IMG/VR virus record: IMGVR_UViG_3300011114_000402
Span: 1-23,068 of that record
DNA length: 23,068 bases
Reading direction: 5' to 3' (one strand)
DNA from: a virus
Every line of letters starts with the position of its first letter. Position 1 is the first letter of the stretch. Of this stretch, positions 754 through 22,926 are shown one piece after another. Below the pieces are notes generated by a model. That model was not told the DNA's origin and searched no databases. It worked only from the letters and a program-made list of their open reading frames with translations. The position numbers were made by a program, and so were the translations under genes.

Positions 754-2673
754 TTATGCTAGATTAAGTTGAGATGTGTTCTGGATGCGCCCGTTCATCC
801 ACATGCGGATAACAGACTTTAACATAGGCTTATTCTTGATAAATGCCGCAAAACGCTCTCCGTGCTTTAAGTATAGATTGTAGAACCATTTAGGAGATTT
901 TGTATCAAGCCAAGCGCGGAAGTAAAGCCATTTAGGATTATTTTTGCCAAACACTTCACGGGCTACCCAACATGGTAGTTTACCAGCAGCAGCAAAACCA
1001 CCACCTAGCGCACCAAGGCCAGAAGCAAGTCCACCAATCATAGCACCACGAGCTTGTGCCTGTGCGCCAGCAAAACCAGCCTGTGAGCCATAGATATTAG
1101 CGTTGTAATTGCTCAGATTAGCGTTCTGGCCCAAGGCCAAGTTAATGCCCGCATTAGGGTCAAATAGCTGCGGCCCTTGCTGACCAGCCATACCCTGAGC
1201 AAATTGTTGCTGTGCCATGCCCATTTGTGCCGCATTGGATGGCCTGCCAAGGATGGCTTGGAAAGGATCAGAAGCCGTAGTTTGACGCGCTCCTACAAGA
1301 CCCATAGCATATCCACGATCAGCGGCTAGCCCCTGATTAAAGAGCTGTGAACCCTGACCAAGATTCTGAATGTAATTCTGATATTGCTGCTGGGCATTGG
1401 CGCGATTGCTTTCAGATGCGCCCAGATTTGCCTGTTGATTGGCAAGTTGTGCCTGCATCTGAGCCTGTTGATTGGCTTGCCCCACTGTTAAGCCAGCCTG
1501 TTGATTAAGTTGCTGGGCATTCATTAACGCCTGTTGATTGGCTTGACCAACCGTTAGCCCAGCTTGCTGGTTAGCAAGTTGTGACTGCATAAGAGCTTGT
1601 TGGTTACTTTGTCCAACATTTATACCAGCGGCTTGATTAAGCTGTTGGGCGTTCATCAATGCTTGTTGGTTTGCAAGAGCGGCCTGCTGTTGCATGGAAG
1701 CATTTGACTGAGAACGATTTAAGTCTTGTCCGTAGATATTGCCAGCCATGCCAAGACGCTGTTGGCCCATACCAAAGCCTTGATTTAATAGCTGACTGCT
1801 AAGCCCAAGATTGCGGCCCTCAAGGTCTAAATCAGCAGAAAGTCTTGCCCCAATCTCATCATACGTTGAACTCATGTCTCCAGATCGCCCACGCGCCTGT
1901 GATGCAATACGGGCTTGCTGGATAGCGTTTCTTGTCTGCATTGCACTTGCGCCAGCTTTCCGATTAAGTATTTCTAAACCAGCCTGATTCAACCCTTGCT
2001 CACCTTGAGAAGCGTAAAGTTGATCTATGCCGCCCTGTTGTAATCCAAGTCCAAGTGCGCTTTGACCAATTCCAGCAGCATTGATTCCGCTATAGCCAAC
2101 TTGTTGAGGGCCGCCAAGTTGAGCAGCTTGCACTTGCTGCGGCCCCCGCATTTGAGCAGCTTGTATTTGCTGCGCCCTTCCCATTTGGGCTGCACGAACT
2201 TGCTGTGCGTATATGTTTTCTCTTGATGGCTGTTGAGCTAATTGAGCAGAAAGAAGATTAGAATATTGATTCTGTTGTGGGCCAGCTAATGCGTCTGCTC
2301 GTTCTAAGGATGCCCTTAATTGAGGATTGGCATTAAGAAAGGCATCAGAAGCCCGTGTGCCATATTGCTCTACATCTGCAATGTCAGCACCACGCTGTGC
2401 AGATAGTGCAGCAATCTGATTTCTAGTCTGAGACTCTGTAGCAAGCCTGCTTTGCTCTAAAGCACCCATCTGGCCGCCCGTACCTTGCAAATAGCTATTA
2501 AGATCAGCTAGGTTAAGTGCCGCATATTGTGGGCGATAAGTCTGCTCACTCTGCAATATCTTCTCCTGCAAGGCTGGGTCAGCCATGCTGTTCATGTAAT
2601 CAAGCGCAGACTTGCCCGGATCAATTGGTGTTGGGGCTGCTGGAGCCTGTGGCATTTGAATACTAGAACCCAT
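754..2673 (-). CDS. Gln/Ala-rich putative internal virion protein with repeats and a conserved basic C-terminal domain
   Basis: The protein has 639 residues and three visible parts. Residues about 1-330 are helical and Q/A-rich, including three 11-residue repeats (AAQxxxxQQxQ, residues 161-193). Residues 335-422 are four exact-length 22-residue repeats beginning NQQA. The end (about 565-632) is quite different: aromatic and basic, beginning PCWVAREVFG and containing KWLYFRAWL, PKWFYNLY and MLKSVIRMWM. I recognise this end as a module common at the C-termini of phage virion proteins, but I know no biochemical role for it. A short Gly/Ala hydrophobic stretch (about 541-563) precedes it and could insert in a membrane. 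The start overlaps the upstream gene by 11 bases. Composition and position suggest an ejected internal virion protein. The gene is certain; the function is inferred. Confidence 0.65.
   Translation of the reverse strand: MGSSIQMPQAPAAPTPIDPGKSALDYMNSMADPALQEKILQSEQTYRPQYAALNLADLNSYLQGTGGQMGALEQSRLATESQTRNQIAALSAQRGADIADVEQYGTRASDAFLNANPQLRASLERADALAGPQQNQYSNLLSAQLAQQPSRENIYAQQVRAAQMGRAQQIQAAQMRGPQQVQAAQLGGPQQVGYSGINAAGIGQSALGLGLQQGGIDQLYASQGEQGLNQAGLEILNRKAGASAMQTRNAIQQARIASQARGRSGDMSSTYDEIGARLSADLDLEGRNLGLSSQLLNQGFGMGQQRLGMAGNIYGQDLNRSQSNASMQQQAALANQQALMNAQQLNQAAGINVGQSNQQALMQSQLANQQAGLTVGQANQQALMNAQQLNQQAGLTVGQANQQAQMQAQLANQQANLGASESNRANAQQQYQNYIQNLGQGSQLFNQGLAADRGYAMGLVGARQTTASDPFQAILGRPSNAAQMGMAQQQFAQGMAGQQGPQLFDPNAGINLALGQNANLSNYNANIYGSQAGFAGAQAQARGAMIGGLASGLGALGGGFAAAGKLPCWVAREVFGKNNPKWLYFRAWLDTKSPKWFYNLYLKHGERFAAFIKNKPMLKSVIRMWMNGRIQNTSQLNLA
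1408..1671 (-). repeat. Four 66-bp tandem coding repeats (22 residues each)
   Basis: Residues 335-422 of the 639-residue protein are four consecutive 22-residue units starting NQQALMNAQQ, NQQALMQSQL, NQQALMNAQQ and NQQAQMQAQL. Units 1 and 3 resemble each other (NAQQLNQ), and so do 2 and 4 (QLANQQA). The array therefore has a 44-residue (132-bp) higher-order period, as expected from duplication of a two-unit block. Confidence 0.9.
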
Positions 2674-3026: not shown

Positions 3027-3590
3027 TTATATTGAAGAAACAGCATAAACGCTAGCTAATGTGCTTCCGTAGGAATAAAGAGTGAACACCATTGCCTGAC
3101 CAGCAGTGAGAGAGGCTGGGAAGGAACCGCCAGCCGATGTCCAAGCAGGCCATGCTGTTGTAATAGTGCCACCAGTGCTGTTCTTAATGGTAAAGATATT
3201 CACTGATCCAGAGGCTTGCCCAGAAACCGTAAAGGTAGAATTATTAGTTAACAGGATGATAGCATTGCTGGCAACCGAAAGGTTTAACGCAATAGTGCCA
3301 GAAGTAGTGTAACCTGTTTCTGGGTCTAGCTTTAACAGGTCGGTTGTTATGATGCTTGTAACAACAGCAGATGTAACAGTCAGAGAACCAACAGTATATG
3401 AGGCAGTAGAGTCTAGCTTCTGGGGAGAAATACCACTATCTTTAACAATAATAGCCCCAGAGGAAAGCTGTGTAGTTGCGCCGTCCACTGCACCAGACGC
3501 AAAGGTTGCGCTATTAACGGCTGCGTTTAAGTTCGTAGACGTTACTTGATCGTTAGCTGCAAAAGTGTTACCTGTTACGAGTATAGCCAT
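3027..3590 (-). CDS. Fibre- or spike-like virion structural protein
   Basis: The 187-residue product is Thr/Ser/Ala/Val-rich, as expected for a trimeric beta-structured phage protein. The N-terminal part (about 1-60) contains NTFAANDQVTSTNLNAAVNS and SSGAIIVKDSGISPQKLDS. This resembles particle-attachment regions of tail fibres and collar fibres. The rest looks like a short beta-sandwich (about 95-187) ending in YAVSSI. There is no catalytic motif or transmembrane segment. A plausible ribosome binding site (AGGA, 7 bases before the ATG) lies upstream, unlike most genes here. It follows the large beta-rich tail protein, so it is probably a small fibre or tail-associated protein. The class assignment rests on composition only. 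Confidence 0.55.
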   Translation of the reverse strand: MAILVTGNTFAANDQVTSTNLNAAVNSATFASGAVDGATTQLSSGAIIVKDSGISPQKLDSTASYTVGSLTVTSAVVTSIITTDLLKLDPETGYTTSGTIALNLSVASNAIILLTNNSTFTVSGQASGSVNIFTIKNSTGGTITTAWPAWTSAGGSFPASLTAGQAMVFTLYSYGSTLASVYAVSSI

Positions 3591-3608
3591 TGTAATATCC
3601 TATCACGT

Positions 3609-5783
3609 TTATTGTTTGGAATTAATAGAAAGGTCTGTTAGTTGCGATGTTAGCTTCAAAGCGCGTACTTTAGGTCTGCCTTGGGTCGGGGCAATTGTAA
3701 ATTGCGCTCCATATCCGCGCACATTGCCGCAACGCCCACGAATAGACGCATCTTCAGAAACGGCTAATTTCTCTCCTAGTAGTGTTTCTACGGAATCAAG
3801 AGTGGTAACAGAATCAGGGTTTTCTGTTTCTAATGTAAGAGTGGCGTTAGATTCATTGCTGGCTGAACTTTCAAGTTGAAGTTCAAACGAGTTAAATCTT
3901 TTTCTGTCCATTGTGCTAGCCGTGTATTGTCTTGTGGTGACAGAAGATACAACATCATAAGCCACTGCCGATGTAGCCACTTGATTAATAATAAGATCAT
4001 TGTCGTCATCTCTATCGTCAAGAAGATGGATGCCGCCAAAAGAATTTACGGCATACAACTTGTTTAGGGCATTAGCCCCGGCTCTGATTAGATTGCGAAC
4101 ATTCCAGTTTACAGAATCTACAGTGTCTAATGATTCCCAGCCTTGATTAATAAAGTTATAAACTAACAAAGCATTGTTCTCAATAGAACTGTCTATAGGA
4201 ACAGAAAGATAATAACGGTTGTCGTGATAGATGCCCACAGAATTTTGGGCATAATTACGATTGATGCGTTTAATCAGAGGATTAATGCTTTCAGATAAAG
4301 GAACTGAAGCCCCGCGCAGATTATATAAATCCTCAAAGGTTATAGCGTATACGCCATTATCAGAAAGAAACAAGATTTGATTGCCAACTTGAACTACAGA
4401 TTTACGAGCCAAGCAACCCACTTCTCTAGTGATTTCTTGAACTACTGTGGCGTTAACATCACCACTCACCCCTTTAATAAGATGGATAGTGTTGCGGTTG
4501 AATACAACAAGATTGTCTTCTGTAAATGGCTGAATGGCTATAACATAATCAGCTCCGCCTGATGCAATCCGATAACTAGCATAGATTTTATCGTAAGTAT
4601 CTTGGTCAAGAATATCGGAAGCAATAATCTCGTCTGTAATGTTACGCGACGTAATGGTGGGACTACCAGATGATCCGGTGGTGTTGTAGAGATATGGCAT
4701 CCACAAACGACGCTGATGATAGATAGCCCACGGAGGTGCGGGCATATGGCTTAATCCAGTGCTTACTGAAAGCCGTTTGCTATAGATAACTTGGCCTGCT
4801 CCAGCATCAGGAACTTCCGCAAAGAAAGTAAAGGTGTTGGCACTAGCAACAGTGGCTACCGTGTATCCCTCCCCGTTCTCAATTAAGGTGGAAGACCCAT
4901 TATTAATTACATAGACGCGATCACCAATAGCTAGTCCATGCGCGGTTTCAGATACAGTGGCAATACCATCTACAATAGTGGTATTTGATGCAGCATCAAG
5001 ATATGTACTAACAGCATAGGCTCCATTGCTTACCAATGTAAATGCTGGACTTGAAACCAAGCTGCCATCCCATTGCAATGTCGTTAAGCCATCTCTAAAT
5101 ATAAAGACATAGTTAAAGGCTTGGAGAAGGTTTACGGTAGATGCGATTGTTGTGCCAGATGGATAAGCAATGGTTGTCGTTGTGCCATCTGATAACTTCA
5201 CGGCATAGGCCGCTTGATTCGTTGCTATAACAATGTATTCTAAATTACTAGCGGATGGATCAGAGAATAAACAAGAACCATACACCCCATTAATAGCGTC
5301 ATCTTCTAGTCTTGGCGCACCAACTATAGCCGTACCAGCAATACTGCCAGACAGTCCCACTACGGTGATTTTAATGGTTGTAGACGTTAGCACCGTAATA
5401 ACCCTATTACCATTAGGCGTTGGCGTAAGACCAGTGATGCCAGAGATATACGCTAATGTTGATGTTGTTAACGTATGCGGAGAAGTAAAAGTTAAGGTAA
5501 TATCGTTGGTTGAACGAGTAATAGAACTGGCTGTCCTATTGGCATAGATATAAAACGGCAGAGTTAAGGCACTGGTATTTGTCGTTATTGTAGTGTCAAA
5601 ATTGGTGATGCCATTGCGCGGTTGCCATGCGCCATCTACATCCATACGTCCGTTAAGGGATAGGGCCACTTCTCCCGCCTTTAATTGATCGGGACGCAAG
5701 CGTGCGTTCATGCGGGAAAAGCCCATATCACCTTCTTCTATCATTGGGCCGTCTAATGGGCCATAGTTATCGAAGCGTGCCAT
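3609..5783 (-). CDS. Large beta-rich tail protein (tail nozzle/hub-like candidate)
   Basis: The 724-residue product begins with a compact conserved segment (FSRMNARLRPDQLKAGEVAL then SLNGRMDVDGAWQPRNGITNF). I associate this with large podovirus tail structural proteins that line the distal tail. The rest is almost entirely beta-prone. It has repeated short hydrophobic strands and phrases such as YAVKLSDGTTT, LQWDGSL, DNLVVFNRNTIHLIKG and QILFLSDNGVYAITF, which look like beta-propeller blades. Such propellers occur in tail nozzle or hub proteins of short-tailed phages (T7 gp12-type). A small inserted domain near residues 60-160 (SSITRSTNDITLTFTSPHTL) resembles Ig-like or adhesin insertions. 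It lies 15 bases after the preceding small basic gene. The structural role is probable; the exact component is inferred. Confidence 0.6.
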   Translation of the reverse strand: MARFDNYGPLDGPMIEEGDMGFSRMNARLRPDQLKAGEVALSLNGRMDVDGAWQPRNGITNFDTTITTNTSALTLPFYIYANRTASSITRSTNDITLTFTSPHTLTTSTLAYISGITGLTPTPNGNRVITVLTSTTIKITVVGLSGSIAGTAIVGAPRLEDDAINGVYGSCLFSDPSASNLEYIVIATNQAAYAVKLSDGTTTTIAYPSGTTIASTVNLLQAFNYVFIFRDGLTTLQWDGSLVSSPAFTLVSNGAYAVSTYLDAASNTTIVDGIATVSETAHGLAIGDRVYVINNGSSTLIENGEGYTVATVASANTFTFFAEVPDAGAGQVIYSKRLSVSTGLSHMPAPPWAIYHQRRLWMPYLYNTTGSSGSPTITSRNITDEIIASDILDQDTYDKIYASYRIASGGADYVIAIQPFTEDNLVVFNRNTIHLIKGVSGDVNATVVQEITREVGCLARKSVVQVGNQILFLSDNGVYAITFEDLYNLRGASVPLSESINPLIKRINRNYAQNSVGIYHDNRYYLSVPIDSSIENNALLVYNFINQGWESLDTVDSVNWNVRNLIRAGANALNKLYAVNSFGGIHLLDDRDDDNDLIINQVATSAVAYDVVSSVTTRQYTASTMDRKRFNSFELQLESSASNESNATLTLETENPDSVTTLDSVETLLGEKLAVSEDASIRGRCGNVRGYGAQFTIAPTQGRPKVRALKLTSQLTDLSINSKQ

Positions 5784-5797
5784 GAGCTTATATTACC

Positions 5798-6040
5798 TTA
5801 ACAATCCCAAGCTCGGCGGCTCCAATAATTTGCTGATAGTTTGTTTCCTGTGCCTTTGATGCCGCCAGATCGAGCGCAATAGCTTTTCTTGCGTGCAGGG
5901 GAGGACTTCTTAATGGTCATATTAGCGTCTCCAAAACGCACAACACGCTCCTGGCCGTTCTGGCATCCTTTGACGACAGATTTCTTGCCGCCACTAATGT
6001 CTCGTCTAGGGCTGTTACAGGGTAGGTCGCGGGGATTCAT
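5798..6040 (-). CDS. Small basic conserved phage protein (RFGDxNM-type)
   Basis: I place the start at ATG 6040, giving 80 residues. It lies one base after the stop of the upstream gene (TAACATG), and the protein then begins with the conserved MNPRDLPCNSPRR. An in-frame ATG at 6070 would overlap the upstream gene by 29 bases and is less likely. Visible blocks are KKSVVKGC, RVVRFGDANMTIKK, ARKKSYCARSGGI and SANYWSRRAWDC. These match a family of small phage proteins found in many aquatic phages, whose function I do not know. The protein is strongly basic with four cysteines, so nucleic-acid or metal binding is possible but unproven. It belongs to a run of four tiny basic genes ahead of the large tail protein. 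Confidence 0.8.
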   Translation of the reverse strand: MNPRDLPCNSPRRDISGGKKSVVKGCQNGQERVVRFGDANMTIKKSSPARKKSYCARSGGIKGTGNKLSANYWSRRAWDC

Positions 6041-6041
6041 G

Positions 6042-6311
6042 TTAGCGATAGGCTGCCGTTTTCTTGGCAATGTTCTTGGGTTGTTTTACAAATTGCTTCC
6101 CTGCTTTCATGCCTTGACGTTTAGCTCTATTAGTGGCCGCTTTTTCCCCAGAACTTAGGGCTTTCTGGGCAGCATCAGGTAGGTAGCGTTCGCCTGTTTC
6201 AAGGCTTGGCTTCCCAGAGGATGTGCGCCATTTCTGGCGCGTCCAATCCACAAGACTGCGTTGTTGCGGCTTCAATGGCGTGTTATCTAGAAGTGGTATA
6301 GCCCCCACCAT
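6042..6311 (-). CDS. Small basic conserved phage protein (DUF5872-like)
   Basis: The product is 89 residues from ATG 6311. The conserved core is VDWTRQKWRTSSGKPSLETG, followed by GERYLPDAAQKALSSGE, RAKRQGMKAGKQFVKQP and IAKKTAAYR. I recognise this pattern as what is annotated DUF5872 in many phages and some cellular genomes; the family name is from memory. No function is known to me; Lys/Arg richness suggests nucleic-acid contact. It overlaps the upstream 60-residue gene by 29 bases. AAGGG sits 2 bases before the ATG and 5 bases before the next codon, GTG, so GTG 6308 may be the true start. It is followed one base later by the next gene's ATG. Confidence 0.8.
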   Translation of the reverse strand: MVGAIPLLDNTPLKPQQRSLVDWTRQKWRTSSGKPSLETGERYLPDAAQKALSSGEKAATNRAKRQGMKAGKQFVKQPKNIAKKTAAYR

Positions 6312-21377: not shown

Positions 21378-21405
21378 TGCGGCATCCATACCACCTATAA
21401 GGAGT
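21378..21405 (+). repeat. 28-bp direct repeat, copy 1 (T7-promoter-like core)
   Basis: A 28-bp sequence that starts TGCGGCAT and contains CCATACCACCTATAAGGAGT. Copy 2 (21503-21530) differs at one base (t/a at position 8). The core CTATA(A/G)GGAG resembles the initiating region of T7-class RNA-polymerase promoters (CACTATAGGGAG). It also contains AAGGAG, which could serve as a Shine-Dalgarno site for ATG 21411. Which function is real is not decided by sequence. Confidence 0.65.
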
Positions 21406-21440
21406 GTTCTATGTTTATATATCCGTCTTTTAAGCGGATC

Positions 21441-21502: not shown

Positions 21503-21530
21503 TGCGGCAACCATACCACCTATAAGGAGT
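21503..21530 (+). repeat. 28-bp direct repeat, copy 2
   Basis: A near-identical copy 125 bp to the right of copy 1. No start codon follows it at ribosome-binding distance, which argues that conservation is for something other than translation. A degenerate third piece (TACCACCTAGGGGTAG) follows at about 21541. Confidence 0.65.
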
Positions 21531-21752
21531 ATCTTAGCTTTACCACCTAGGGGTAGTAACTACTCAATAAACCTTAGACATTGGTAGATTTGGTCACGAA
21601 ACAGATTTCATTACCAATTATCATTTGGGTGAATCCACCGATGAACCATCGTTTGCCCAACACCAAGAAAACAATAGCAGGCAGGCCATGTTGCAATTTT
21701 TTTTAGGGCGGTGCTAACCAATCCCAATCATAGTCAACCGCTGGCTGGTCGA

Positions 21753-21765
21753 CCCCCCCCCCCCC
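21753..21765. repeat. C13 homopolymer next to a GTCGAC site
   Basis: Thirteen consecutive C bases (G13 on the minus strand) follow directly on the hexamer GTCGAC (21748-21753). Such a tract is unusual in this GC-balanced DNA and lies in a non-coding stretch. Confidence 0.95.
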
Positions 21766-21878
21766 TGTGTGGTATTGCATAAGCTTGGCAATAGGTAATG
21801 AGAAGCTGTCTCAATAAGTAACGCAAACAGCTTGCGGCTAGTAGTAAGCATCATGACTACTTTAGTAAACATGGCTAC

Positions 21879-22156: not shown

Positions 22157-22195
22157 TTCACTCTTAGTGAAAGATAATTGTTGACTTCTTCAATT
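22157..22195 (+). promoter_or_regulatory. Operator-like inverted repeats around the rightward promoter
   Basis: TTCACT-ctt-AGTGAA (22157-22171) lies just upstream of the -35. AATTG (22176-22180) and CAATT (22191-22195) enclose the -35 TTGACT. These inverted repeats would place a dimeric regulator on the promoter of the 22254 gene. Confidence 0.5.
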
Positions 22196-22209
22196 CGTGA
22201 CCCCATATT
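22181..22209 (+). promoter_or_regulatory. Rightward sigma70-like promoter
   Basis: TTGACT (22181-22186), a 17-bp spacer and CATATT (22204-22209) are close to consensus at ideal spacing. Transcription would start near 22216, about 38 bases before the first rightward gene. The transcript would pass through the hammerhead ribozyme and end at the terminator at 22895-22926. Confidence 0.65.
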
Positions 22210-22253
22210 GATACCAGTCGAACGACAACCGCTCGACGCAACCCTAGAAATAA

Positions 22254-22580
22254 ATGAAAATTAAACCTCACGTTAATTCAGTTGGAGCTTGTTACTTTGC
22301 CTCCAACTTTTTCGGCTGGGCTACCGCCAAAACTCCCTGGCAAGCTTTGGCTAAATTGGATTTGTCTGCTTGTCGCAGACCGCGACTTTCTCCTAAGCTC
22401 TTGGCTTTTGCGAAAGATGAGGTTTGTCTTTATTACATTCCCAACGAAGACACGTTTGCGGGAGTAAAATCTTACTCGCCCGTAGACGCGAATGACAAGC
22501 CCTACGGGGTTTGTTTATATTCGGGCGGAGAAAGTGAGCATAACGAGCAACTTGTTTTTAACGAGTTGACCGATACCTAA
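22254..22580 (+). CDS. Small hypothetical phage protein (108 residues) upstream of the ribozyme
   Basis: The product begins MKIKPHVNSVGACYFASNFF, continues GWATAKTPWQALAKLDLSAC, and ends with a mixed strand/loop region containing CLYYIPNEDTFAGVKSYSPV and ELTDT. It contains four cysteines but no recognised motif or transmembrane segment. It begins in an A-rich leader (CTAGAAATAAATG) without a Shine-Dalgarno site. It is the first gene after the promoter at 22181. Its stop codon is followed immediately by the ribozyme, so cleavage would leave its mRNA with a structured 3' end. I do not recognise the family; early host-interaction genes are commonly this size. Confidence 0.7.
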   Translation: MKIKPHVNSVGACYFASNFFGWATAKTPWQALAKLDLSACRRPRLSPKLLAFAKDEVCLYYIPNEDTFAGVKSYSPVDANDKPYGVCLYSGGESEHNEQLVFNELTDT

Positions 22581-22633
22581 AGACGAAACACGCGCAAGCG
22601 TGTCCATGGGTAATGCCCCATGCTGACGAGTCT
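22581..22633 (+). ncRNA. Type II hammerhead self-cleaving ribozyme
   Basis: All elements of the hammerhead are present in order. Stem II 5' AGAC (22581-22584) is followed by core GAAA (22585-22588). Stem III is CACGC (22589-22593), loop GCAA, and GCGTG (22598-22602). U22603 and C22604 form the cleavage triplet GUC with G22602. Stem I is CATGGG (22605-22610), loop TAATGC, and CCCATG (22617-22622). Core CTGACGA (22623-22629) follows, and stem II 3' is GTCT (22630-22633), pairing fully with AGAC. The first stem II pair is G-C (10.1-11.1) as in the consensus, and A22588 pairs with U22603. Stem II is the open stem, so this is type II. Predicted cleavage is after C22604. Stem II has only 4 bp, so strength of activity is open. 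Confidence 0.93.
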
Positions 22634-22658
22634 CAAACAAACAAACAAAATCCATCCC

Positions 22659-22874
22659 ATGAAAATTATCCTAAAAGACACATTCAATAATTTTATTATT
22701 TCTCGCCATCGCACCGTTGCGGCAGCGGTTGCGGCACGCGATGCTTATTCTCGCCGGATAAAGCGTGCCAACGGTCAAGGAAGTTATATACCAATGAGCA
22801 TTATTTCATTTCCTTTTGGAGAAGACATAGACAATGCGATTTTTGAGGCTGAGCAGATGCTTAGTATGCGCTAG
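22659..22874 (+). CDS. Small conserved phage protein downstream of the ribozyme
   Basis: I choose ATG 22659 (71 residues, MKIILKDTFNNFIISRHRTV). Earlier in-frame starts fall in the ribozyme or in the (CAAA)4 leader. The core RTVAAAVAARDAYSRRIKRA then NGQGSYIPMSIISF matches a small phage family with an RTxxxAVxA..........RANG..SY pattern that I recognise without a known function. The rest is acidic helix (EDIDNAIFEAEQMLSMR). The 25 bases between the ribozyme and ATG are unstructured C/A repeats, as in a clean 5' end after cleavage. No Shine-Dalgarno site is visible. Confidence 0.75.
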   Translation: MKIILKDTFNNFIISRHRTVAAAVAARDAYSRRIKRANGQGSYIPMSIISFPFGEDIDNAIFEAEQMLSMR

Positions 22875-22894: not shown

Positions 22895-22926
22895 AAGCCC
22901 GCTCCCTTTCGCTAGGGGCGGGCTTT
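22895..22926 (+). terminator. Intrinsic terminator after the small rightward genes
   Basis: AAGCCCGCTCC (22895-22905) pairs with GGGGCGGGCTT (22915-22925), giving an 11-bp stem with one T-G pair. It is followed only by a short T-run (TTT). The hairpin ends the two-gene rightward unit 20 bases after the 22659 gene. The short T-run makes it moderately rather than fully efficient. Confidence 0.75.

Follow-up and report, generated by a model that had tools for sequence, protein, structure and literature searches.

What would a self-cleaving ribozyme do between two genes of a phage? The window, by which we mean the whole 23,068-base virus record that was analysed, has genes for a phrog_2 terminase and for a major capsid protein of the SU10 type, both on the minus strand. 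A plus-strand operon diverges from the terminase side, beginning near position 22250, and between its first and second genes lies a 53 nt sequence that a preliminary description had taken, from the letters alone, for a complete type II hammerhead ribozyme with all core positions and three fully paired stems. The locus raises the question of whether the ribozyme is genuine and, if it is, whether it serves the two genes that happen to flank it or the transcript as such.

Genomic setting

The features of the region are collected in Table 1. The promoter candidate is a weak match to the consensus (9/12), and three such sites were found where 1.3 were expected by chance; it falls within a stretch that is conserved in relatives. 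No relatives of the two flanking orphan proteins were found in viral contigs, PHROGs or Pfam. A second in-frame ATG at 22620, within stem I, is a less likely start of the 71 aa gene than the one at 22659, and no Shine-Dalgarno sequence was found in the 25 nt leader that precedes the latter. The hairpin beyond the downstream gene, which may be a terminator (one without a long T run) or an RNA-processing site, is 91–93% identical in three relatives with different genes before it (L362, L363 and L369).

Table 1. Features of the early operon and of the ribozyme, numbered from the first base of the window
Feature	Position	Strand	Basis or remark
Sigma-70-like promoter candidate, TTGACT-17-CATATT	22181..22209	+	ahead of first operon gene
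Upstream gene, 108 aa orphan protein	22254..22580	+	stop TAA 22578-22580
A at ribozyme position -1, last base of stop codon TAA	22580	+	sequence
Type II hammerhead ribozyme, pseudoknot-free class	22581..22633	+	core, fold, covariance model
Stem II 3' strand AGAC, paired with GTCT 22630-22633	22581..22584	+	3/4 pairs covary in class
Invariant GAAA (G12 A13 A14 A15.1)	22585..22588	+	invariant
Stem III hairpin ACACGC-GCAA-GCGTGT	22588..22603	+	fold; predicted 3' end of upstream message
C17	22604	+	predicted cleavage between 22604 and 22605
Stem I hairpin CATGGG-TAATGC-CCCATG	22605..22622	+	fold; predicted 5' end of downstream message
CUGANGA core (CTGACGA)	22623..22629	+	invariant except at N7
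Stem II 5' strand GTCT, paired with 22581-22584	22630..22633	+	fold, covariation
A-rich leader of downstream gene, 25 nt	22634..22658	+	sequence
Downstream gene, 71 aa orphan protein	22659..22874	+	start ATG 22659
Strong hairpin 3' of downstream gene	22895..22925	+	-28.3 kcal/mol, z -3.5

Other features were seen in the non-coding gap between the terminase and the early operon and in relatives. A 40-nt direct repeat (85%) occupies 21378–21417 and 21503–21542, 125 nt apart, and many relatives match both copies at one place, making a short duplication likely. A run of about 14 C lies in non-coding sequence at 21753–21766, and C-rich tracts are found at the same place in L014 and L018. The close relative L001 carries a tRNA gene (1330–1401, minus strand, 75.5 bits); none was found in the window.

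Structure of the ribozyme

The sequence contains the CUGANGA and GAAA elements, the A15.1-U16.1 pair, a GUC triplet (of the UH form) and the G-C pair that closes stem II. Loops close stems I and III while stem II is open, which is the type II order, so the arrangement originally read from the letters was recovered in both the sequence and the fold. Folded without its surroundings, the stretch 22581–22633 takes up the secondary structure of a hammerhead exactly (-18.4 kcal/mol, z -2.6). When flanking sequence was included, the predicted probability of stem II was 0.22 at 20 nt on either side, 0.72 at 40 nt and 0.01 at 80 nt, and the drop in the longer context indicates that competing folds with the coding sequence are possible. 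The predicted cut site in Table 1 is that implied by the hammerhead mechanism. No second ribozyme was found within the window.

No pseudoknot of 4 bp or more was found between loop I and the 3' tail, the loop TAATGC not being complementary to the tail CAAACAAAC. A pairing of GGUA, from stem I and loop I, with UACC just before the stop codon appeared possible by eye in the window but was rejected because the partner is not kept in two close relatives that carry the ribozyme (L001 and L087). Neither a pseudoknot nor any other tertiary contact could be demonstrated for the window ribozyme. Fast cleavage by hammerheads at low magnesium usually depends on a tertiary contact.

Detection against background

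The Rfam search that the preliminary description had named as a check went against it at the library threshold. Release 15 gave no match at the gathering score, an E-value scan over 601 bases also missed the ribozyme, and RF02276 (Hammerhead_II) was returned solely from a 73-base scan, with 30.5 bits (E 4e-5) where the gathering cutoff is 37. SNORD111 and mir-602 matches in the E-value scan were below threshold and are meaningless here. A custom covariance model, built from 18 type II hammerheads of other phages with the window, L001 and L087 left out, scored the window ribozyme at 58.4 bits (E 1.2e-18, the E-values of such custom models being rough). That the Rfam score falls below threshold is due to the library model and not to a shortcoming of the ribozyme.

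A strict structural scan found 246 type II matches in 2.09 Mb of phage loci, a number that is not a rate because most of the loci were fetched by ribozyme patterns, and none when the same sequence was reversed. The same scan of randomised window sequence gave one type II match in 9.2 Mb. When the type II pattern with AGAC and GTCT as the stem II strands was searched for in IMG/VR, 41 valid loci were obtained (L081–L131). Only two matches (L356 and L357) were found in 257 Gb of bacterial and archaeal genomes and neither could be folded as a hammerhead, so bacterial genomes were rejected as the home of this exact form, which may occur solely in phages that rarely leave prophages behind.

Two architectures of phage type II hammerheads

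The 195 distinct type II hammerheads collected from phage contigs split into two architectures with 144 and 51 members, proportions that are not unbiased because parts of stem II or stem III were prescribed in the scans, and counts that are not independent events because the phages are related to each other. In the commoner class the stem I hairpin is 16–19 nt long, stem II has at least 4 bp in 140 of the 144, loop I starts with U and is mostly of the form UNANG, and the potential for a pseudoknot is 20% compared with 15% in shuffled sequences. The rarer class has a longer stem I hairpin and mostly a stem II of 3 bp or fewer, and a pseudoknot between loop I and the tail is possible in 96% of members compared with 44% after shuffling. 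The window ribozyme, with its 4-bp stem II, U-first UNANG-type loop and A at position -1, belongs to the commoner class; its loop, UAAUGC, is one base longer than the commonest loop of the class. At the Rfam gathering score, three of four pseudoknotted ribozymes in the relatives were found but none of the window's class in 11 loci where that class is present, and none of 23 type II ribozymes from Streptomyces phages was found.

In an alignment of 24 members of the class, 99.5% of stem cells were paired compared with 64% in shuffled sequences, a value inflated by the selection of sequences that already matched the structure. Two-sided stem changes numbered 130 compared with 36 after shuffling, with 13 of the 16 pairs changing on both sides. 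Two-sided changes in the window's own lineage, described below, are a fairer sign than the percentage paired in the class. Of 83 distinct stem III hairpins with a tetraloop, 49 have a GNRA or UNCG loop; such caps are expected if the stability of stem III matters, and they may only serve folding.

Hammerheads of the other circular orders were also seen. With a closed stem II fixed, at least 143 type I and at least 11 type III forms were present among the matches listed (L235–L354), and the excess of type I suggests that phages favour forms with a closed stem III. The idea that type II is favoured because both cut ends are hairpins was rejected, as type I forms are abundant too; it may be a closed stem III, and not the type II order as such, that the forms have in common. 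The UGA within the invariant CUGA of the core seems to serve as the upstream frame's stop codon in 19 of 119 phage type I hammerheads from this set.

Conservation in related phages

A search with the terminase gave 80 related loci. The ribozyme is found at the same place in L001, where the terminase is 98% identical to that of the window, and in L087, which has a closely related small terminase gene; both loci were found by core, stem II and terminase. The ribozymes are 91% (L001) and 81% (L087) identical to that of the window. In L001, stem III is ACGCC/GGCGT in place of ACACGC/GCGTGT, while L087 has ACACCC/GGGTGT in stem III and CGCAGG/CCTGCG in stem I. The core is identical in all three except at the variable N7. 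Compensatory changes in related phages, which had been put forward as a means of checking the assignment, are therefore present in both relatives with the core intact. Together with the core, the fold, the independent covariance model and the covariation in the class, these two orthologues bear out the identification of a complete type II hammerhead.

The proteins encoded on either side of the ribozyme differ among the window, L001 and L087, and those of the window are unrelated to their counterparts in the other two. That the ribozyme was kept while both flanking genes were replaced points to a function that is independent of the genes. The leaders that follow the ribozyme in L001 and L087 are identical to each other, A-rich and about equal in length to that of the window. 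The region between the conserved promoter-side stretch and the conserved hairpin behaves as a gene cassette. The ribozyme is dispensable, being present in some but not all members of the lineage whose promoter regions are comparable. In C75C1 (L355), the nearest phage with an annotation, no ribozyme was found close to the terminase.

Four more distant members (L020, L022, L026 and L056), placed in the same group by their terminases, also carry a type II hammerhead after a gene end in a divergent early region, at a similar place. These ribozymes are of the other architecture, differing from that of the window in a stem II of 2–3 bp and a loop I-tail pseudoknot, which is about 6 bp in L020 and L026 and weaker in L022. 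All but L022 pass the Rfam threshold.

Placement and arrays

The preliminary description had given the ribozyme as abutting a stop codon and lying 25 bases before the next start, which is correct (TAA ends at 22580, the ribozyme runs from 22581 and the ATG at 22659 follows after 25 nt), and had called this placement notable. The adjoining stop is real but is not peculiar to this locus, as it is the rule in phages: the upstream stop ends between -3 and +5 nt from the edge of stem II in 135 of 185 (73%) evaluable ribozymes. By chance, this is expected at 3.7% of random positions and at 4.7% of random positions that follow an A. Genes in these counts are open reading frames, a crude measure for which the annotated Streptomyces phages serve as a check. 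An A is found at position -1 in 137 of the 144 members of the window's class, and in 47 of 47 cases in which the stop is 1–5 nt away, indicating that the A belongs to the ribozyme and is often contributed by the stop codon, as it is in the window, where AGAC follows TAA. A position between an upstream stop and a start on the same strand was seen for 148 of the 185, the start being within 80 nt in most.

Several phages carry arrays. Eight type II hammerheads occur in 3.3 kb of L097 (bases 3035–6289), at nearly every gene junction, and the early operons of the cultured Streptomyces phages ShakeNBake (L378), Gibson (L379) and Yara (L380) contain eight, seven and eight, respectively. In the Streptomyces phages, 22 of the 23 are intergenic and 11–17 nt before an annotated start, and the upstream stop is 4 to 777 nt away. 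The window has a single copy in the part that was sequenced.

Possible roles

We favour the reading, with a probability of roughly 0.65, that the ribozyme is a self-cleaving, gene-independent punctuation mark of phage early mRNA. Starting from the observed sequence, structure, covariation, placement and conservation despite swapping of the flanks, we infer that the predicted ribozyme cleaves in the cell and affects stability and expression. It would cut the transcript between the first two genes of the operon, and one long mRNA would probably become two hairpin-ended pieces. Stem III, with a 2',3'-cyclic phosphate, would form the hairpin at the 3' end of the upstream message, and the downstream message would begin with a 5'-OH at the stem I hairpin, followed by the core remnant, the leader and the start codon. 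Among the circular orders, type II alone gives closed hairpins at both new ends. Both messages could thus be protected from end-dependent RNases, and each would have an untranslated end that stays the same for any gene inserted. End-dependent bacterial RNases are hindered by 5'-OH ends and by terminal hairpins.

Since the flanking genes change while the ribozyme stays, a generic role is more likely than one in regulating particular genes. The likeliest role is to divide the mRNA into two messages, as the flank swapping, the arrays and the spacing support. The cutting would most likely be constitutive, acting on the polycistronic early mRNA like a natural RiboJ insulator, and the predicted anatomy, a hairpin-led 5' UTR before a start codon, fits this. 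The fixed downstream spacing favours a benefit to the second message, and the abutment on the stop together with the tetraloops favours one to the first.

It is unlikely, though it deserves some weight, that the ribozyme only matures the leader, giving the downstream gene a fixed, hairpin-started 5' end with any upstream effect being incidental. The distance to the start is fixed in the Streptomyces phages where the upstream stop may lie hundreds of nt off, a start still follows after 5–60 nt for 17 of 20 phage ribozymes distant from a stop, L001 and L087 share the same leader, and engineered RiboJ insulators consist of a hammerhead and a hairpin in the 5' UTR (PMC7536230). However, the 73% that adjoin an upstream stop go beyond what leader trimming alone needs, and stem III, which would be left on the upstream message, is mostly capped by stable tetraloops. 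The compactness of phage genomes could explain the abutment, and to that extent punctuation and leader maturation overlap as readings.

A rather doubtful elaboration is that, throughout a large class specific to phages, the ribozyme and the upstream stop form a fused module, in which the stop gives the flanking A and cutting is coupled to translation. A terminating ribosome would cover stem II and the GAAA strand, so that cleavage would occur only when no ribosome is finishing the upstream gene.

Regulation specific to these genes or controlled by a ligand, with the ribozyme tuning the ratio of the two proteins, is very improbable. The ribozyme does lie between two genes of one unit, and PMC3088659 suggests regulated cleavage in phages as a possibility, but the orthologues in L001 and L087 are flanked on either side by unrelated genes and the compact 53-nt form leaves no room for a sensor domain. 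Slighter still is the chance that the element is a cassette boundary or hitchhiking repeat, kept as homology for swapping small early genes rather than for its activity. It is better conserved than its neighbours and lies between the conserved promoter region and the conserved hairpin; its stems, however, change by compensation instead of staying identical, revealing selection on the fold, and class members of other phages share little sequence beyond the core. The least credible reading, a chance match or a decayed, inactive ribozyme, draws on the sub-threshold Rfam score and on the inactivity of 4 of 18 consensus hammerheads assayed in PMC3088659, and is opposed by the reversed and random controls, by orthologues with intact cores and compensated stems and by the covariation of the class.

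Relation to known ribozymes

The element in the window belongs to a kind already described. Type II hammerheads, their presence in phages and clusters flanking genes in prophages were reported by Perreault et al. (2011; PMC3088659), who suggested that cutting turns long phage transcripts into messages of operon or gene length. The type II hammerheads of that study and of RF02276 share with the window the stem order, complete core, open stem II and intergenic location in phage or prophage genomes, sometimes clustered around genes. The published type II consensus includes a pseudoknot between loop I and the 3' tail, whereas the window's class has none and is distinguished by its 4-bp stem II, short UNANG-type loop I and score below the Rfam gathering cutoff.

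In the same study, comparable natural arrays self-cleaved in vitro. The hammerheads flanking ardA in Agrobacterium tumefaciens and others border single genes of a phage-derived operon and cleave in vitro, those of A. tumefaciens also in Escherichia coli. They differ from the window in their prophage context, other flanking genes and clustering, the window having a single copy. In RiboJ (PMC7536230), too, the hammerhead stands ahead of a start codon and shortens the leader so that a 5' hairpin remains, and a model of RiboJ treats the uncleaved message as shorter-lived. It is engineered, with an added 23-nt hairpin, whereas the 5' hairpin in the window would be stem I itself and the upstream gene is predicted to be cut off too. 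A later paper notes an enrichment, for reasons that it calls unknown, of hammerheads and twisters of bacteria in the neighbourhood of particular genes, above all those of Mu-like phages (PMC10085705).

Within the open-access literature covered, no description was found of the pseudoknot-free class as a main phage form, of the stop-codon fusion or of the arrays in cultured Streptomyces phages, and priority is uncertain for all three. The role of bacterial and phage hammerheads has been an open question since 2011. In every locus checked, the window's form scored below the gathering threshold of the standard RNA library. A ribozyme that is kept while both its neighbours change, ribozyme edges that fall at stop codons in many phages and arrays of seven or eight in cultured Streptomyces phages open what was a vague question to direct testing in laboratory hosts, and they point to natural, very short insulator parts.
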